The notes beneath the pieces were generated by a model. It was given only the letters and a program-made list of their open reading frames with translations, had not been told where the DNA came from and searched no databases. The position numbers and the translations under genes were made by a program. Positions 1 through 6,192 of a stretch of 64,000 nt of DNA are shown piece after piece. How positions within the stretch are numbered: position 1 is the stretch's first letter; each line of letters opens with the position of its first letter. Source of the stretch: Marinobacterium halophilum (GTDB lineage Bacteria > Pseudomonadota > Gammaproteobacteria > Pseudomonadales > Balneatricaceae); the NCBI RefSeq assembly GCF_003014615.1, contig NZ_PYGI01000005.1, positions 1 to 64,000 on the forward strand, given 5' to 3'.

Positions 1-340
<340 letters not shown>

Positions 341-344
341 ACCA

Positions 345-360
345 CAGTCACTTGTTACGT
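345..360 (-). repeat. Partial attC site next to the IS
   Basis: The sequence ACTTGTTACG at 350-359 matches the end box shared by the intact attC sites of this array (CTTGTTAGC or CTTGTTACA). The rest of the attC is absent because insertion-sequence DNA lies directly to the left. The stop codon of the neighbouring cassette gene (355-357) falls inside the GTTA of the box, as it does in other cassettes here. I infer that the insertion sequence landed in this attC. Confidence 0.6.
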
Positions 361-1074
361 GTTTTCGGAAGCCGCATTATTGGCCTTATACGCTTGGACC
401 TTTTCATAGATCTTACGAACTGTATTATCAATAATTCTTTGCGCACTTTCCCTAGAGGTGTATCTAAGCTCTCCAGGTGTTTGACCTTCCTGAACCAGCT
501 TTCTAAATAGGTCATCTCTCTGGCTTTCTGCTATTCCAGCTTGATCACATAGATCGTCAAATGGGCTAGATGCGCCAGTAAGGGCAATAATCTCAGATGC
601 TTTAAGCGGCGAAGTTAGTACAACCTCGCCTTGTGAATCTTTAAAGTGAAATAAAGGCTTAGACTCTTCTGGAAAATTCTCTTTGAATTTGTCCGCCGCC
701 TCTATGAATTCCTGATTTTGCCACAACGCACAAATATTAATTACCACCTCTTCATCCGTAGGCTTATGCTCAAATATAGCCCCTGAGACTGCTCCTTCTT
801 TTTGGAGGTCTTTGAATCGCTCAGCAAACTCTTTGTCTATGGTCCAGCTAACGACCCCCTCGCTCTTTTCATCTTTCAGGATTATGTCAACGAGCTCTCC
901 TTCATGCAGGAAGCGTTTTCGATAGCATATAGAAGGTACCTTTCTAAAAGTCGGATCGAGCCCCTTTGTGGACTCAAGCAATTTCTCAGAGAGCTCAATC
1001 CGCTTTGATTGATCCTCCCTCCAACCTTTTTGCCAATTTGCGATAGCGCGCAATAACTCTTCTGAAAAATTCAA
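355..1074 (-). CDS. Integron cassette protein of unknown function (239 aa)
   Basis: I do not recognise this soluble, charged protein of about 239 residues. It has no signal peptide, membrane segment or catalytic motif that I can name; the C-terminal 40 residues (RYTSRESAQRIIDNTVRKIY) look helical. The longest frame starts at a TTG at 1072-1074 with only a weak ribosome-binding site, so the start is uncertain. The gene is the leftmost cassette: its stop codon overlaps the attC remnant at 345-360, and an intact attC follows its 5' side at 1107-1198. Base composition is clearly more AT-rich than the chromosome after 4490. Confidence 0.72.
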   Translation of the reverse strand: MNFSEELLRAIANWQKGWREDQSKRIELSEKLLESTKGLDPTFRKVPSICYRKRFLHEGELVDIILKDEKSEGVVSWTIDKEFAERFKDLQKEGAVSGAIFEHKPTDEEVVINICALWQNQEFIEAADKFKENFPEESKPLFHFKDSQGEVVLTSPLKASEIIALTGASSPFDDLCDQAGIAESQRDDLFRKLVQEGQTPGELRYTSRESAQRIIDNTVRKIYEKVQAYKANNAASENT

Positions 1075-1106
1075 ATCAAAAACCCATACTCTAATTTAGC
1101 GGGACA

Positions 1107-1198
1107 CGTAACGCCGCAATAAACGGACCGAAAAGCGTAGCTTTTTTGGTCCGGTGGAGGCCCAAAGGGCCGGAACGAATTTCATTGCCTTGTTAGCC
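1107..1198 (-). repeat. attC recombination site
   Basis: About 92 bp of imperfect dyad symmetry separate two cassette genes. On the minus strand it begins GGCTAACAAGGC and ends GCGGCGTTACG, the R-box pattern of attC sites. A long inner hairpin arm is visible (GGACCGAAAAGC at 1125-1136 against GCTTTTTTGGTCC just after). It belongs to the cassette 1199-1579, whose stop codon touches its end. Confidence 0.85.
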
Positions 1199-1579
1199 TC
1201 ATAAGAGACTACTTCCGTATTTTATTACCGTAGAGACTAAGCTCTTGATTAGCTCTTTTTTTCCAGTTTCAGCAGCGTCCTTAATTGCACCAACCAAATT
1301 AGATTCAATTTCTAATTTCACGGGAGCCTCAATATTTAAAATAGAGAAACCTTTCGAAGTTAGCCTTACTCCAAAAAATCCACCATATAATTGATCATCA
1401 TATTTTATGTAACCCTCATCAAAATAAAAAGAAACCGTATTAATAAATATGCTAGAACTCTCTTCATTATCAAAATCAGGGTAATCACTGACACGAAGAT
1501 CCAATTTACTTGGGAATACCTCATAAAGCTTAGGAAATATTAAAGCAGAAATCTCGTTAAACTGCGATATATTACTCAT
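1199..1579 (-). CDS. Integron cassette protein of unknown function (126 aa)
   Basis: This small soluble protein is unknown to me. The segment YGGFFGVRLTSKGFSILN near residues 65-82 resembles the wing of a winged-helix fold seen in many small regulators, but that is only a resemblance. The C-terminal 35 residues are predicted helix with alternating hydrophobic residues. The ATG at 1577-1579 has a good ribosome-binding site (GAGG, nine bases upstream). It is one complete cassette, bounded by attC sites at 1107-1198 and 1604-1687. Confidence 0.75.
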   Translation of the reverse strand: MSNISQFNEISALIFPKLYEVFPSKLDLRVSDYPDFDNEESSSIFINTVSFYFDEGYIKYDDQLYGGFFGVRLTSKGFSILNIEAPVKLEIESNLVGAIKDAAETGKKELIKSLVSTVIKYGSSLL

Positions 1580-1603
1580 TTAAAGCCACCTCTTAGATAG
1601 GAG

Positions 1604-1687
1604 AGCTAACGCTCAATTAAGGGGCCGAAAAAGCATAGCTTTTGAGGTCCCAGCCCGCTTGCGGGCGCCTTGAATTTCTTGTTAGCA
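1604..1687 (-). repeat. attC recombination site
   Basis: About 84 bp with the end boxes GCTAACGC (1605-1612) and CTTGTTAGCA (to 1687). The inside contains a GCCCGC-TTGC-GCGGGC type hairpin at about 1653-1667 and a second arm around GGGGCCGAAAAAGC. The stop codon of the cassette gene 1682-2026 lies inside the GTTA of its end box. Confidence 0.85.
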
Positions 1688-2026
1688 TTTTTTGAAATTC
1701 TTCATATACTCGTAATTTCTAACTGCGTTTTCATACTGACTTAAAGCATTTAGTTTTTGGGGCTGACCTTGAATCAAGGTAAATGATGCTGCTTCATCTA
1801 AGCAAATACACCTCACTGCTCGAATGCAAGAAGAAACAACAGCTTCGGCGCACATGTATTCTTCATTATGCTCACCACCACGATTAATAAGCCTACAAGC
1901 ATCTTTAAAAATTGATACAAGATTAACCTTATCTATTTCATGAGAGTCCCAAGAAAAACCATATAATCCGTCATGTAGCAGGTCCGCAGCTTTATGTTCG
2001 TATTGTAAATCTGTGATCTTATCCAT
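1682..2026 (-). CDS. Integron cassette protein of unknown function (114 aa)
   Basis: I do not recognise this 114-residue soluble protein. It is cysteine-rich in its middle (C at about 44, 59, 67, 73 and 75), with a segment VSSCIRAVRCICLDEAA that could form a helix, and it ends in Cys. No signal peptide or membrane segment is seen. The ATG is at 2024-2026 with a weak ribosome-binding site. The TAA at 1682-1684 is embedded in the attC end box, so gene and recombination site overlap. Confidence 0.75.
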   Translation of the reverse strand: MDKITDLQYEHKAADLLHDGLYGFSWDSHEIDKVNLVSIFKDACRLINRGGEHNEEYMCAEAVVSSCIRAVRCICLDEAASFTLIQGQPQKLNALSQYENAVRNYEYMKNFKKC

Positions 2027-2050
2027 AATTCCAGCTCACATCTTCCTGAA

Positions 2051-2119
2051 TGCTAACGCCTGGCTCTGGGGCCGCATGGAGCGAAGCGTAGTGCGGTCCG
2101 TAGCAGCCACTTGTTACAT
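2051..2119 (-). repeat. attC recombination site
   Basis: A short site of about 69 bp with end boxes TGCTAACGCC (2051-2060) and CTTGTTACA (to 2119). The inner part is the dyad GGGGCCGCATGGAGCG against CGTAGTGCGGTCCG. It follows the 3' end of the HEPN-like cassette gene that stops at 2120. Confidence 0.83.
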
Positions 2120-3034
2120 TTATAGCTGTTCATAATATTCAATCAAACCAGAACAAAAATTCTTTCCAGCTTTATAAGCACCGAATCGGCCCAATTCCTT
2201 TTTTAGAAGGTTAACCCTCACTTTATGATTTTTATTATGGTCCGTATCTGGGAGATCAGAAGCCAACTTATGGTAAAAATAGAGTGTTTGATACTCCCCG
2301 ATATGGTTTTCAAGAAGATGCCTATCAATGTCTTTTGCGACCGCATAGATCAAACTCTGGTACTCAATAGTATTTTCTCGTTGCAGTTTCTCAATAGGCA
2401 TAATATCAATTACATCGTGGTTTCTACTTTTCTCAATATCTCTGCCAAAAGAGTGACCCACTCTATTTCTTAAATTTCTAATTTTTTCGAGCGTTGAAAC
2501 ATTATCTTTTAACTTACCAGGAACTTTCCCGAACACACGTTCATAGGCAGCGACACGACTACCCCATTCACCTTTTGTACATGATATAACCTTATCTTCA
2601 AAGTCGAATGGTTGCGACTTTCCGTGCTTTAATATCGACGCGCCATCTATTTTTCGATTAGCTCCATATAAAACCCCTACATCCGACTCCAAAGCCAATT
2701 TTATTACTGTAGCCATATAGGTTTCTAAGTTGGAAGCCATAGCCATAACAGAATTTAGGTTAATCCAATTGTCAAACGAATTAAACGAATCGGACCAACT
2801 GCGAAGATTTTCAAATGAATTTTCATGTGTCGGATCAGAAAATGAGAAGTGTTTAGTAACTCCATCATCCCACTTGGCAGATTTCCCAAGATTTGTATAT
2901 ACATAAGAATGTGCAGCAATATGCGCGATATACATCCTGCTTAATTCACGATTATGTTTCTGAAAAACCTGAAATGTCCAAGAGCTGAGTTCTCGAGATT
3001 TCCATCTTTCAAATCTTAATTGGCTACGAGACAC
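2120..3034 (-). CDS. Integron cassette protein with HEPN-like ribonuclease motif
   Basis: A soluble protein of about 304 residues. Near residues 184-197 it has IRNLRNRVGHSFGR, which contains R-N-x3-H (Arg189, Asn190, His194), the Rx4-6H signature of HEPN ribonucleases with the usual polar residue after the Arg. A helix with NLETYMATVIKLALES about 90 residues earlier fits the first helix of RiboL-PSP-type HEPN domains. The open frame extends to 3121, but the extra codons run through attC DNA. The GTG at 3032-3034 has GAGGA five bases upstream and is the likely start. Function as an RNase in defence or toxin-antitoxin is inference from the motif only. Confidence 0.7.
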   Translation of the reverse strand: MSRSQLRFERWKSRELSSWTFQVFQKHNRELSRMYIAHIAAHSYVYTNLGKSAKWDDGVTKHFSFSDPTHENSFENLRSWSDSFNSFDNWINLNSVMAMASNLETYMATVIKLALESDVGVLYGANRKIDGASILKHGKSQPFDFEDKVISCTKGEWGSRVAAYERVFGKVPGKLKDNVSTLEKIRNLRNRVGHSFGRDIEKSRNHDVIDIMPIEKLQRENTIEYQSLIYAVAKDIDRHLLENHIGEYQTLYFYHKLASDLPDTDHNKNHKVRVNLLKKELGRFGAYKAGKNFCSGLIEYYEQL

Positions 3035-3049
3035 GATATTCCTCAGGAA

Positions 3050-3120
3050 TGTAACGCCCGCATTTGCGGCTTGTTTGGAGCGCAGCGGAAAACCAGTCCG
3101 ACAACATGCGCTTGTTAGCA
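3050..3120 (-). repeat. attC recombination site
   Basis: About 71 bp with end boxes TGTAACGCCCGC (starting 3050) and CTTGTTAGCA (to 3120). The inner dyad includes CATTTGCGGCTTG and CGCAGCGG/CAGTCCG arms. The stop codon of the next cassette gene (3115-3117) lies in its GTTA. Confidence 0.83.
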
Positions 3121-3657
3121 TTGTAAGTACATTTCTGGTTTTGCCTTATAGCTTGGAGTTAAAGGGATACCCGATTCAAATTTTTGGTATGCCTCTGGAC
3201 CAACACTGTATGACTTTACCTTTTTAAAGTTCTTTAGAAACACTTTCCTGAAGGTTTTATAAAGTGATGTAGAAAAATCACTGATACCAGGAGAAAACTC
3301 ACCTGGAATAAGGTATGCCTCTTCATACTCCCCAGAAGGTACGAATCTAAAACAGATTTCCATTTGTTTATTCATATCATTTACTGAATACTTGATACCA
3401 CCTCTACGCTGTGGAACTTCTTTTGGCACCACTTTAAAGTCGCTCGGATAGATTAGGTAGATCGGTTGAGAATTAGTGGTGCCTTGCGTTGAAAGCCCGA
3501 AGTCAGGAAAATCTTTGTACGTCTTATACTCAGTTGTCTCTGGCGAATCAAATAAACCAAGTCTGGTATATTTAATTGATACCTCTGATTCAATTTTTTC
3601 AAGTCCTGATTCCATATCTGCTTTGGTCGCAAAATAGAATATTCCTTTTCTAGGCAT
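3115..3657 (-). CDS. Integron cassette protein of unknown function (180 aa)
   Basis: This 180-residue soluble protein is unknown to me. It starts MPRKGIFYFATKADM and has a mixed alpha/beta pattern with many aromatic residues; FSPGISDFSTSLYKTFRKVFLKNFKKV near residues 120-146 is basic. The ATG at 3655-3657 has a strong ribosome-binding site (GAGGAGAG, three bases upstream). The stop codon lies in the attC end box at 3114-3120. No secretion or membrane signals are seen. Confidence 0.75.
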   Translation of the reverse strand: MPRKGIFYFATKADMESGLEKIESEVSIKYTRLGLFDSPETTEYKTYKDFPDFGLSTQGTTNSQPIYLIYPSDFKVVPKEVPQRRGGIKYSVNDMNKQMEICFRFVPSGEYEEAYLIPGEFSPGISDFSTSLYKTFRKVFLKNFKKVKSYSVGPEAYQKFESGIPLTPSYKAKPEMYLQC

Positions 3658-3672
3658 GAACTCTCCTCATGA

Positions 3673-3758
3673 TGCTAACGCCGTGTTAAGGGGCCGAAGC
3701 AGCACAGCTGCGAAGGTCCCAGTGAGTGCAGCGAACGAACTTGAACACCTTGTTATAA
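3673..3758 (-). repeat. attC recombination site
   Basis: About 86 bp with end boxes TGCTAACGCC (about 3673-3682) and CTTGTTATAA (to 3758). The inner hairpin pairs GGGGCCGAAGC with GCGAAGGTCCC around AGCACAGCT. It follows the 3' end of the cassette gene 3762-4064. Confidence 0.83.
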
Positions 3759-3761
3759 AAT

Positions 3762-4064
3762 CTAATCCCCTGCACAGATTATCTCTTGGTTTTTTCTAAC
3801 GGCAATACTAAAAAAGCTTGATAAGCGAAGGATAAGTAATTTGAATTGTGCATTTGAATAAATATTTAATGAATTCAATTTTAGCAATTCAAATATGAGT
3901 TCGCTTGCTTCAAGTGAAGAAAAAACAACATTTCCATAAAAATTCAAATGCATTTTATTTAGCTGAGGATATTCTTTCTCGTCGCCATCGATCATGGATA
4001 GTATGTATTCTTCTTGAACATCAATCGAATCATGCTGGTTACCGATGTACATATCAAAAGCCAT
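3762..4064 (-). CDS. Integron cassette protein of unknown function (100 aa)
   Basis: A 100-residue acidic protein beginning MAFDMYIGNQHDSIDVQEEY, then a helix-rich second half (SLEASELIFELLKLNSL). I cannot assign a family; the opening looks like that of some small immunity or hypothetical proteins, but I would not name one. The ATG at 4062-4064 has AGGGAG four bases upstream. It is the rightmost recognisable cassette, and therefore the first one if the array reads leftward from a lost attI. Confidence 0.72.
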   Translation of the reverse strand: MAFDMYIGNQHDSIDVQEEYILSMIDGDEKEYPQLNKMHLNFYGNVVFSSLEASELIFELLKLNSLNIYSNAQFKLLILRLSSFFSIAVRKNQEIICAGD

Positions 4065-4078
4065 ACATTCTCCCTGAT

Positions 4079-4126
4079 TTATAACAGCCTATTTATGAGG
4101 TCTAATACCTCATAATAATTATTAGC
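4079..4126 (-). repeat. Possible attI or degenerate attC at the right edge of the array
   Basis: On the minus strand the cassette gene 3762-4064 is preceded by GTTATAA (4079-4085), the same core as the attC ending at 3758. Next to it lies a perfect 9-bp stem with a 5-base loop (4093-4101 with 4107-4115). The far side (ATTAGCG) is only weakly like an attC end box. The place is right for an attI or an eroded attC, but the site is shorter and more AT-rich than the others. Confidence 0.4.
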
Positions 4127-4425
4127 GGGTATACCTTTTAATTCTGGCCACCAATATAATATTTCTTTAAAAACAACAGGTTATATTTTCCATATATTGA
4201 AAAAAGGTAATTTTCATGATGCCATAGCATCCAGCGGGTATTGAGCAAACAGGTACTCACAGCCGCAAACAACGGGCTGTTCGGGTAGTCATATGTGCCG
4301 CTTTGGGCTGTGGATGTGGCTGGCATGGCCTCTTCCCTGTTATCTGCCTGAGGATGGTCCCTTACAGTGGCCAACTCCATGCCACTGTTTAACTGAGCTT
4401 AACCTGATTGAGTGTTTGAATAAAG
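4127..4425. other. Region without a convincing gene between cassette array and ABC operon
   Basis: About 300 bp. An open frame of 80 codons runs on the minus strand from 4380 to 4138, but it has no recognisable family and no good ribosome-binding site, and its base composition shifts from chromosomal (upper half) to AT-rich (lower half). It may span the junction of chromosome and integron. No integrase fragment could be recognised here on either strand. Confidence 0.5.
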
Positions 4426-4467
4426 CAACAGAGTGCTCAAGACGACCAAGGTCTCAGCACTCTGTTG
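4426..4467 (-). terminator. Stem-loop terminator after the ABC importer operon
   Basis: A perfect 12-bp inverted repeat, CAACAGAGTGCT (4426-4437) and AGCACTCTGTTG (4456-4467), lies about 20 bases beyond the stop codon of the ATPase gene. The run of T after it on the minus strand is short (CTTTATT), so termination efficiency is uncertain. Confidence 0.6.
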
Positions 4468-4486
4468 TGGTTGGGCCTGTGCTGAA

Positions 4487-5290
4487 TCAGGCCCCCAGCA
4501 GCAGTTTGTCGTCGTCCAGTTCTTCCCCGTCGGGACGCATCTGGGCGAACAGGTTTAGCAGGTCTTTTACACCGTAGTTGCTGCGCTCTTCACCGGCCAA
4601 ATCAAACGCGACCTTGCCTTCATGCATCATGAGGGTGCGGGTGCCGTGGTCCAGCGCCTGACGCATGGAGTGAGTGACCATCAGCACGGTGAGCTTTTTC
4701 TCCGTGACGATCTGGTCGGTAATTTCCATCACCAGTGCGGCTGTTTTCGGGTCCAGTGCGGCGGTGTGTTCGTCCAGCAGCAGAATTTTACTGGGCTGCA
4801 GCGCAGACATCAGCAAGCTAACAGACTGGCGCTGGCCACCCGACAGCAGGCCCATCTGGGCGTCCAGCCGGTCTTCAAGGCCCAGGTTCAAACGCGACAG
4901 CTGCTCGCGGAACAGTGTGCGCAGGCGATCGTTCAGCGCCAGTTTCAAACCGCCCCGCTTGCCGCGGCCATAGGCCAGTGCCATGTTCTCTTCAATGGTC
5001 ATCTCGCCACAGGTGCCCGCCAGCGGGTCCTGAAATACGCGGGCCACATCGCGGGTACGCGCAGCGGCTGACAACGCGGTTACGTCACGGTCATCAAAGT
5101 AGAGACGCCCGCCAGAGCTGCGAATGTCACCGGCAATGGTGTTGAGCAGGGTCGATTTACCCGCGCCGTTGGAGCCGATCACGGTGATAAACTCGCCCTG
5201 GGGAATGCTCAGATCAACACCGCACAGAGCGCGTTTTTCCGTCGCCAGGCCGGGATTGAAGGTCACTTTAAGCTGTTCACAGCGGATCAT
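4487..5290 (-). CDS. ABC importer ATP-binding protein, TrpZ-like
   Basis: Cytoplasmic ATPase of a three-part ABC importer; it powers uptake of the ligand caught by the binding protein encoded at 6278-7249. Visible motifs are Walker A GSNGAGKS, signature LSGGQRQSV and a Walker B LLLDEHTAALD, where His replaces the common Pro as is usual in this subfamily. The start is the ATG at 5288-5290, which overlaps the permease stop codon as ATGA, showing translational coupling; a longer frame to 5326 exists but lacks such support. The ligand is probably a small amino-acid-like molecule; the sequence does not say which. Confidence 0.85.
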   Translation of the reverse strand: MIRCEQLKVTFNPGLATEKRALCGVDLSIPQGEFITVIGSNGAGKSTLLNTIAGDIRSSGGRLYFDDRDVTALSAAARTRDVARVFQDPLAGTCGEMTIEENMALAYGRGKRGGLKLALNDRLRTLFREQLSRLNLGLEDRLDAQMGLLSGGQRQSVSLLMSALQPSKILLLDEHTAALDPKTAALVMEITDQIVTEKKLTVLMVTHSMRQALDHGTRTLMMHEGKVAFDLAGEERSNYGVKDLLNLFAQMRPDGEELDDDKLLLGA

Positions 5291-6192
5291 GCGGCATCTC
5301 CCTTGGCGGCTTTGCGGGCTTTCCACTCACGGCGCAGCTGCGGCAGGATAAGCGCCAGGCCAACCAGTACAGCGGTAATCAGGTTGAGATCGGATGTAGT
5401 GAAGCCGATAAAGTCGGCGTTCAGGGCCACTGCGATGGCCAGTCGATACAGCAACGAGCCAATGATGCAGCTGAGTACAATGACCAGCATGGAGCGGCTG
5501 TTGAACAGGCTCTCGCCCACGATTACCGCCGCCAGGCCGACGACAATGGTGCCGACGCCCATGGTCGAGTCGGCAAAGCCGTTGGTCTGGGCAAATAATG
5601 CACCCGCCAGTGCGACCAGTCCGTTGGACAGTGCCAGCCCGGCATAGATTTTCTGGTTTACGACGATGCCGTTGGCCTGCGCCATGCGCGGGTTGGCACC
5701 TGTGGCGCGCATCGCCATGCCGTACTGGGTATTGAGGAACCAGGCCAGCAGCAGGCCGATCGCAATCACCACTACCGCTACGAATATGACCTTGAGGTAC
5801 ATGCTCGGAATACCCAGCGACTGGAACGGCGACAATACAGTCGGTTCCATGATCAGCGCCAGGTTGGGCTTGCCCATGATGCGCAGGTTGATGGTGTACA
5901 GCGCCGTCATGGTCAGGATACTGGCCAGCAGGTGCAGGATGTTGAAGCGCAAGTTGAGCCACGCGGTCACCAGTCCGGCGGCGGCACCACCAAAGACTGC
6001 GCTGATTGTGGCAAGGTAGGGGTTCACCCCGGAAATGATCAGTGCCGCCGCCAGTGCCGCACCCATCGTGAAGCTGCCGTCGACCGTGAGATCAGGAAAA
6101 TCGAGCACGCGGAAGGTCAGGTACACGCCGAGAGCAACCAAGCCAAAAATAAAGCCGATTTCCAGCGTACCCATAAAAGAGAAGAGAGACAT
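5287..6192 (-). CDS. ABC importer permease, TrpY-like
   Basis: Integral inner-membrane permease of 301 residues with about eight to nine hydrophobic segments, of the branched-chain amino acid permease fold (BPD_transp_2). It starts MSLFSFMGTLEIGFIFGLVA and contains the FTMGAALAAALI and GLVALAGALFAQ blocks usual for this family. It lies between the genes for the binding protein and the ATPase and overlaps the latter by four bases. Such systems with a PF04392-type binding protein are called TrpXYZ in some bacteria. The substrate is not evident. Confidence 0.85.
   Translation of the reverse strand: MSLFSFMGTLEIGFIFGLVALGVYLTFRVLDFPDLTVDGSFTMGAALAAALIISGVNPYLATISAVFGGAAAGLVTAWLNLRFNILHLLASILTMTALYTINLRIMGKPNLALIMEPTVLSPFQSLGIPSMYLKVIFVAVVVIAIGLLLAWFLNTQYGMAMRATGANPRMAQANGIVVNQKIYAGLALSNGLVALAGALFAQTNGFADSTMGVGTIVVGLAAVIVGESLFNSRSMLVIVLSCIIGSLLYRLAIAVALNADFIGFTTSDLNLITAVLVGLALILPQLRREWKARKAAKGDAA

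Follow-up and report, generated by a model that had tools for sequence, protein, structure and literature searches.

The window analysed here is the initial 64 kb of contig C5 (NZ_PYGI01000005.1) in the draft genome of Marinobacterium halophilum (designated G000; 3.65 Mb, 47 contigs, completeness 99.87%), and it holds near its left end an array of integron gene cassettes that starts at an attI site of its own. In integrons, the integrase IntI (gene intI) joins the attC site of a cassette to the attachment site attI, and an integron is described as having a single integrase, a single attI and a single array. The array of the window has no intI beside it, and attI sites of the same kind, likewise apart from intI (solo attI sites in the following), were found elsewhere in this genome and in many of the related genomes compared (G001 onwards). 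The features at the locus are as follows (positions in the window).

3-326, plus strand: 3' part of an IS110/IS1111-type transposase gene, inside which the contig begins (PF02371, E 1.5e-12)
351-359, minus strand: R'' remnant, the partial attC of cassette 6, cut by the IS110-type element (from the sequence; adjoins the end of the transposase gene)
355-1074, minus strand: cassette 6 gene, no assigned function (open reading frame, ORF; no substantial match in Pfam, NCBIfam or PADLOC)
1106-1198, minus strand: attC of cassette 5 (motif score 16; 97% match of 1109-1195 in G004)
1199-1579, minus strand: cassette 5 gene, no assigned function (ORF)
1604-1687, minus strand: attC of cassette 4 (motif score 17; matches of up to 95% in other genomes)
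1682-2026, minus strand: cassette 4 gene, no assigned function (ORF; relative in G028, 71% over about 455 bp)
about 2049-2118, minus strand: attC of cassette 3 (by eye; 81% match in G080)
2120 to about 3034, minus strand: cassette 3 gene, no assigned function (ORF and sequence; GTG start at 3034 likely)
3050-3121, minus strand: attC of cassette 2 (motif score 14; 3052-3117 matches several genera)
3115-3657, minus strand: cassette 2 gene, no assigned function (ORF)
3673-3758, minus strand: attC of cassette 1 (motif score 16; 89% match in G007)
3762-4064, minus strand: cassette 1 gene, the first behind attI (ORF; relative in G004, 87% over 324 bp)
4081-4241, minus strand: solo attI (crossover at 4084/4085; AAAAGGTATACCCGCT segment; TACCTTTTTT box at about 4200-4209; distal TACCCGCTGG box at about 4231-4241)
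4095-4113, no strand assigned: palindrome (dyad) inside attI (DNA fold z -5.1; covariation)
4487-5326, minus strand: flanking core gene for an ABC-transporter ATPase (PF00005, E 4.4e-26)

The first-pass annotation had read this DNA as six minus-strand ORFs alternating with five intact attC sites and one partial site, and the arrangement is borne out, all five intact sites being oriented as the cassette genes. With our own score for the R''/R' and L''/L' motifs (not the IntegronFinder model) and a threshold of 14, four of the five sites were found on the minus strand of 327-4090; 200 dinucleotide shuffles gave a mean of 0.24 sites, and none of them reached four. The fifth site (2049-2118) lies under the threshold and was called by eye. 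All five overlap stretches with counterparts in one or more other genomes of the family (identity of the best short matches 81-98%), and folding with RNA parameters gave the expected outer pairing of R and L in four of them (it is absent in 3050-3121). The minimum-free-energy z-scores of the five sites folded as DNA (-1.5 to +0.2) were no different from those of shuffles, which counts against the array, and an Rfam scan for attC gave no relevant match. The array is AT-rich, as had been stated, with a GC content of 0.31-0.45 in the 500-base windows starting at 251-3751 and of 0.55-0.62 in those of the flank starting at 4251-6001. The claim that no integrase adjoins it also holds, in that no intI was detected by tblastn in the 64 kb, which begin at the start of the contig. 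In this the array resembles the clusters of attC sites lacking integron integrases (CALIN), which are arrays of at least two attC sites in one orientation (here four by score and one by eye) with no integron integrase nearby (here the sole intI fragment of the genome lies on contig C1). The suggestion that the cassettes carry defence or toxin functions found no support: none of the six cassette proteins gave a Pfam or NCBIfam match over the curated cut-off, and PADLOC gave weak matches only (E 0.0084 and 0.012).

The absence of an attI, which the first-pass annotation had assumed, is refuted by the site at 4081-4241, the crossover of which reads GTTATAA on the minus strand, with the exchange point between the G and TTATAA. 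In a search of the genome with window 1-4500, the stretch 4081-4176 was found to be 85% identical over 96 bp to C1:184415-184510, which is located between a truncated intI and another cassette array, and a 67-position sequence model of attI (R1) matched C5:4081-4145 with 76.9 bits (E 3.9e-21). The fragment at C1:183808-184296 was the only clear match in a search of the genome for intI; it covers residues 1-163 of the 315 of TIGR02249 and scores 171 bits against a cut-off of 265. The same sequence adjoins intI in all five Marinobacterium genomes that have an intI of full length (G001, G003, G004, G005 and G006); it is thus the attI of this integron lineage, and the window array begins on a copy of it. 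This attI lies beside intI in the relatives and abuts the first cassette at the GTT crossover. Of the parts of a complete integron, an attI at the 5' end of the array is thus present, and a functional intI adjacent to it is not. Five full-length attI matches occur in the window genome, one at the broken intI and four without intI, in addition to a shortened copy inside the main array and one decayed copy. As the C-terminal half is missing from the one intI detected, the window array is probably frozen now unless an integrase arrives from elsewhere. A separate 16-kb contig of this genome (C34, L044) carries four tyrosine-recombinase matches and is perhaps a mobile island.

In Marinobacterium, model R1 gave 34 matches distributed over all eight genomes (one to seven in each), and in the family 137 matches in 48 of the 116 genomes, one genome being compared per species. 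For 17 of the family matches an intI match is located within 1.5 kb, and for the other 120 it is not; a site was regarded as solo when no intI match at E 1e-25 or better was present within 1.5 kb on the opposite strand, so that small intI remnants (as in G002) and partial attI matches are counted as solo in this tally. Matches were found in 36 of 390 genomes in an even sample of the order and in 4 of 369 (including the window genome) in a sample of the class, and the attI type is therefore confined to part of Gammaproteobacteria. A shorter exact pattern run over named genomes gave 38 stretches, among them Marinobacterium, Nitrincola, Neptuniibacter and Methylophaga, and stretches also in Porticoccaceae, Spongiibacteraceae and Cellvibrionales metagenome-assembled genomes. 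When the 34 stretches of the genus were searched by tblastn with the IntI of G005 (E 1e-4), no match was obtained at the 26 solo attI loci; the positives were six intI loci, an 80-residue remnant in G002 and the intI locus of G007. The local loss of an adjacent integrase, one of the two explanations first offered for the window array, is not supported by this result. At the intI-linked loci, IntI is 87-93% identical to that of G005 in the species compared.

Solo sites were grouped into loci by the 4 kb on their non-array side. Shared loci were found at clpB (6 genomes), at a thiolase gene (4), at a SnoaL-like gene (4) and at a methyltransferase/spermidine-synthase-like gene (3); the ABC locus of the window and one more are each shared by 2 genomes, and there are four singletons. 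At the ABC locus, the attI is present also in another species (G007), and the ABC gene occurs in G005 and G004 as well, without attI, the similarity to the window stopping at 4474 and 4486, before the leader. Between orthologous solo loci, the mean identity was 75-93% in the 40-bp core, 33-59% in the spacer at 63-110 bp and 72-88% in the flanking coding DNA (the decayed G007.C26 and G000.C1c were excluded from this comparison). With five decayed sites set aside, twenty solo sites keep the boxes TACCCG, TACCTTTTT and TCAAT..GTTAT as well as the dyad core, and the attI layout of about 175 bp is retained while the spacers diverge. As judged from these sequence comparisons, the solo attI sites are ancestral and constrained.

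The core of the attI contains a palindrome of eight pairs, in which 96.3% of the cells pair over 54 distinct sequences. The alignment (A3) comprised 60 of the 69 candidate sites, six being left out for length or register (L107, L108, L109, L110, L111 and L116) and three because the wrong place had been picked (L131, L147 and L153). The covariation score of the palindrome is 0.104 against a shuffled mean of 0.063, and ten cells are changed on both sides against a shuffled mean of 2.0; none of 500 shuffles reached 0.104 or ten cells. Eight of the ten doubly changed cells represent one T-A to C-G change common to genus g5, where the palindrome is GAGGCC..GGCCTC in most of the sites inspected, and the number of pairs with a double change (two) is not unusual (106 of 500 shuffles). 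The independent support from covariation thus appears modest, at about three separate double changes. When the palindrome of the window was folded as DNA, none of 200 shuffles was as good. Three solo attI at different loci in G003 (L107, L108 and L109) carry an identical 3-bp deletion in the palindrome loop, which the intI-linked attI of that genome does not have; the common deletion suggests exchange between copies.

Attachment sites of this type are followed by cassettes. Within 6 kb of 32 Marinobacterium sites (including seven at the intI locus), attC-like motifs numbered 36 on the same strand and 5 on the other in 119 kb downstream, and 1 and 4, respectively, in 188 kb upstream; the corresponding counts for 20 sites outside Marinobacterium were 32 and 6 in 119 kb downstream and 4 and 2 in 67 kb upstream. 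The arrays at orthologous solo loci have almost nothing in common between species (tblastx, E 1e-8): their first cassettes differ and their cassettes are mostly unrelated. At the clpB locus, 2 of 15 pairs of arrays match, one in an attC-sized stretch and the other far out, probably in the flank, and at the SnoaL-like locus the matches comprise an insertion sequence (IS), short pieces, far flank and one block of about 590 bp common to G005 and G006. Unrelated cassettes at orthologous solo arrays are expected if insertion at solo attI continued after speciation. A 584-bp stretch in the intI array of the window genome has a 96% identical counterpart in a solo array of G007. Duplicated ordinary cassettes within one genome were considered as proof of movement and rejected, the duplicates being IS-like repeats only.

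Some further observations concern the contents of the arrays. The attC stretch of cassette 2 (window 3052-3117) has 97-98% identical counterparts in several other genera of the family, an identity that suggests wide cassette exchange. A transposase-bearing unit (IS91-like by eye) lies exactly at the attI crossover in the intI-linked array and three solo arrays of G003 (L105, L106, L108 and L109) and in a solo array of G006 (L119); it is ambiguous whether it represents a cassette inserted at several attI or an IS targeting attI. Shortened attI copies, consisting of about the last 44 bp with the palindrome, occur at gene ends inside arrays or in place of an attC (L017:10399-10442; the second match of L126, at 5474-5504 or 3459-3489; L113:2566-2604), and in G004 the relative of cassette 1 (87%) precedes such a shortened attI-like site instead of an attC. 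They resemble the Delta-attI gene cassettes that the available passages of PMC12901181 report for class 1 and 2 integrons. At the far end of the window array, the IS110-family transposase gene adjoins the cut attC, and window 1-357 has four further copies in the genome. Targeting of attC by the IS1111 group is documented (PMC11616780, in the passages available), and the PF02371 match together with the adjacent attC remnant makes the element a candidate for this group.

The window array is an integrase-less array with its own attI and belongs to a family of conserved solo attI platforms. We consider it likely that it represents one platform of a distributed integron, i.e., an array on its own complete attI apart from the integrase gene. 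With somewhat less assurance, we favour the general proposition that one trans-acting IntI stably serves several attI platforms, which have their own arrays at conserved loci and an attI with a conserved, covarying palindrome, and that this organization is ancestral in Marinobacterium and related marine Gammaproteobacteria. IntI produced from a single locus would act in trans, inserting and removing cassettes at every one of these attI through ordinary recombination of attI with attC, and a putative attI-proximal promoter would express the first cassettes of each array. Action of IntI in trans on all attI sites is the simplest account of a single intI together with several conserved attI, each followed by unrelated cassettes. 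The first-pass annotation had also considered that the cassettes were moved to this place by an integrase in trans; the integrase-less nature of the array stands and movement in trans comes close to the best-supported explanation, yet the site is the array's own attI and not a random place.

Several points weigh against a distributed integron. IntI exceeds the family cut-off in only 24 of the 48 attI-bearing genomes, and some of those genes are broken, which keeps relics or selection on promoters alive as possible rivals. The genomes of genus g5 (G027-G033), as well as G103 and G052, mostly have two to seven solo attI (G029 has one) and an intI that is missing or broken, and complete genomes such as G031 contain two solo attI and no intI match at E 1e-25. 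The attI copy of the window is without the TCAAT..GTTAT box, the other shared boxes being present. A perfect dyad was found in 9 of 12 cases with intact IntI and in 8 of 18 without, a difference short of significance (one-sided Mann-Whitney p 0.055, Fisher p 0.14), and no ordinary cassette is common to the arrays of one genome. Part of the covariation and conservation may be a consequence of homogenization between copies, which could mimic constraint. Many of the genomes are in draft form, and numerous contigs break off immediately behind attI. Finally, recombination in trans is inferred, and no recombination event was observed.

Among the other explanations, it seems doubtful that each solo array was once a complete integron from which the adjacent intI was deleted, the attI being kept by inertia. 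Decay of intI is indeed common (truncated in the window genome, 5'-truncated in G007, an 80-residue remnant in G002, further fragments in both G001 and G004), solo attI occur in several genera that lack an intact intI, and the leader is common to solo and intI-linked sites up to about the start of intI, as if the solo sites had formerly bordered that gene. Such a history, however, does not agree with 26 solo loci without a trace of intI, with the same loci being free of intI in every species where they were found, with a core conserved while the spacers diverge, or with array contents that turned over after speciation. It is also improbable that the arrays are old and only decaying, and that the solo sites persist chiefly because they serve as promoters of the cassettes or as regulated 5' leaders, rather than as recombination sites. 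In favour of this view, a promoter is expected near attI (according to the passages available of PMC9024848), the sites persist in genomes without an intact intI, and an operator or a 5' hairpin of the mRNA would be conceivable roles of the dyad. Against it, the conservation extends as far as the crossover and takes in distal boxes at a distance of about 145-175 bp, and first cassettes differ at orthologous arrays.

The usual explanation for integrase-less arrays is that IntI inserted cassettes at a secondary genomic site (attG), and off-target insertion by an IntI located elsewhere has been published as a way in which CALINs arise (Cury et al., from the citation in the available part of PMC8618304). 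For the window array it is very improbable: the attI match at 4081-4176 already contradicts it, the place of insertion has the whole of an attI, with a leader of about 160 bp, and is not a short random site, and this place is common to the window genome and G007.

A distributed integron differs from the CALINs in that each array has its own attI, with several copies per genome, whereas the passages on CALINs available to us report no attI. For Xanthomonas, CALINs are reported to occupy conserved positions on the chromosome (PMC12444791, in part), and IntegronFinder 2.0 is described as detecting attI only for class 1 integrons (PMC9024848, in the same passages as above). As in the sedentary chromosomal integrons, one intI with an attI and a cassette array occupies a locus that is conserved in Marinobacterium; the difference lies in the extra attI platforms, which carry arrays of their own at other places in the genome. 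As a site, the attI described here resembles attI1 of class 1 integrons, a simple site of L box, spacer and GTTRRRY R box. A short inverted repeat is present beside the L box of attI1 as well, but here the dyad is perfectly paired over 8-9 bp and conserved across genera; a title by Hansson of 1997 reportedly calls attI sites non-palindromic. We found no description of several attI per genome with integrase-less arrays in the open-access literature, subscription journals being mostly outside this search, so that an earlier description is possible.

The attI class is recognisable by its sequence, and current software looks for none outside class 1 integrons; the question of the origin of CALINs becomes directly testable. 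If the distributed integron is real, many arrays now filed as degraded CALINs would be working parts, and the genomes concerned would have several expressed first-cassette positions and several loci taking up foreign genes at once.

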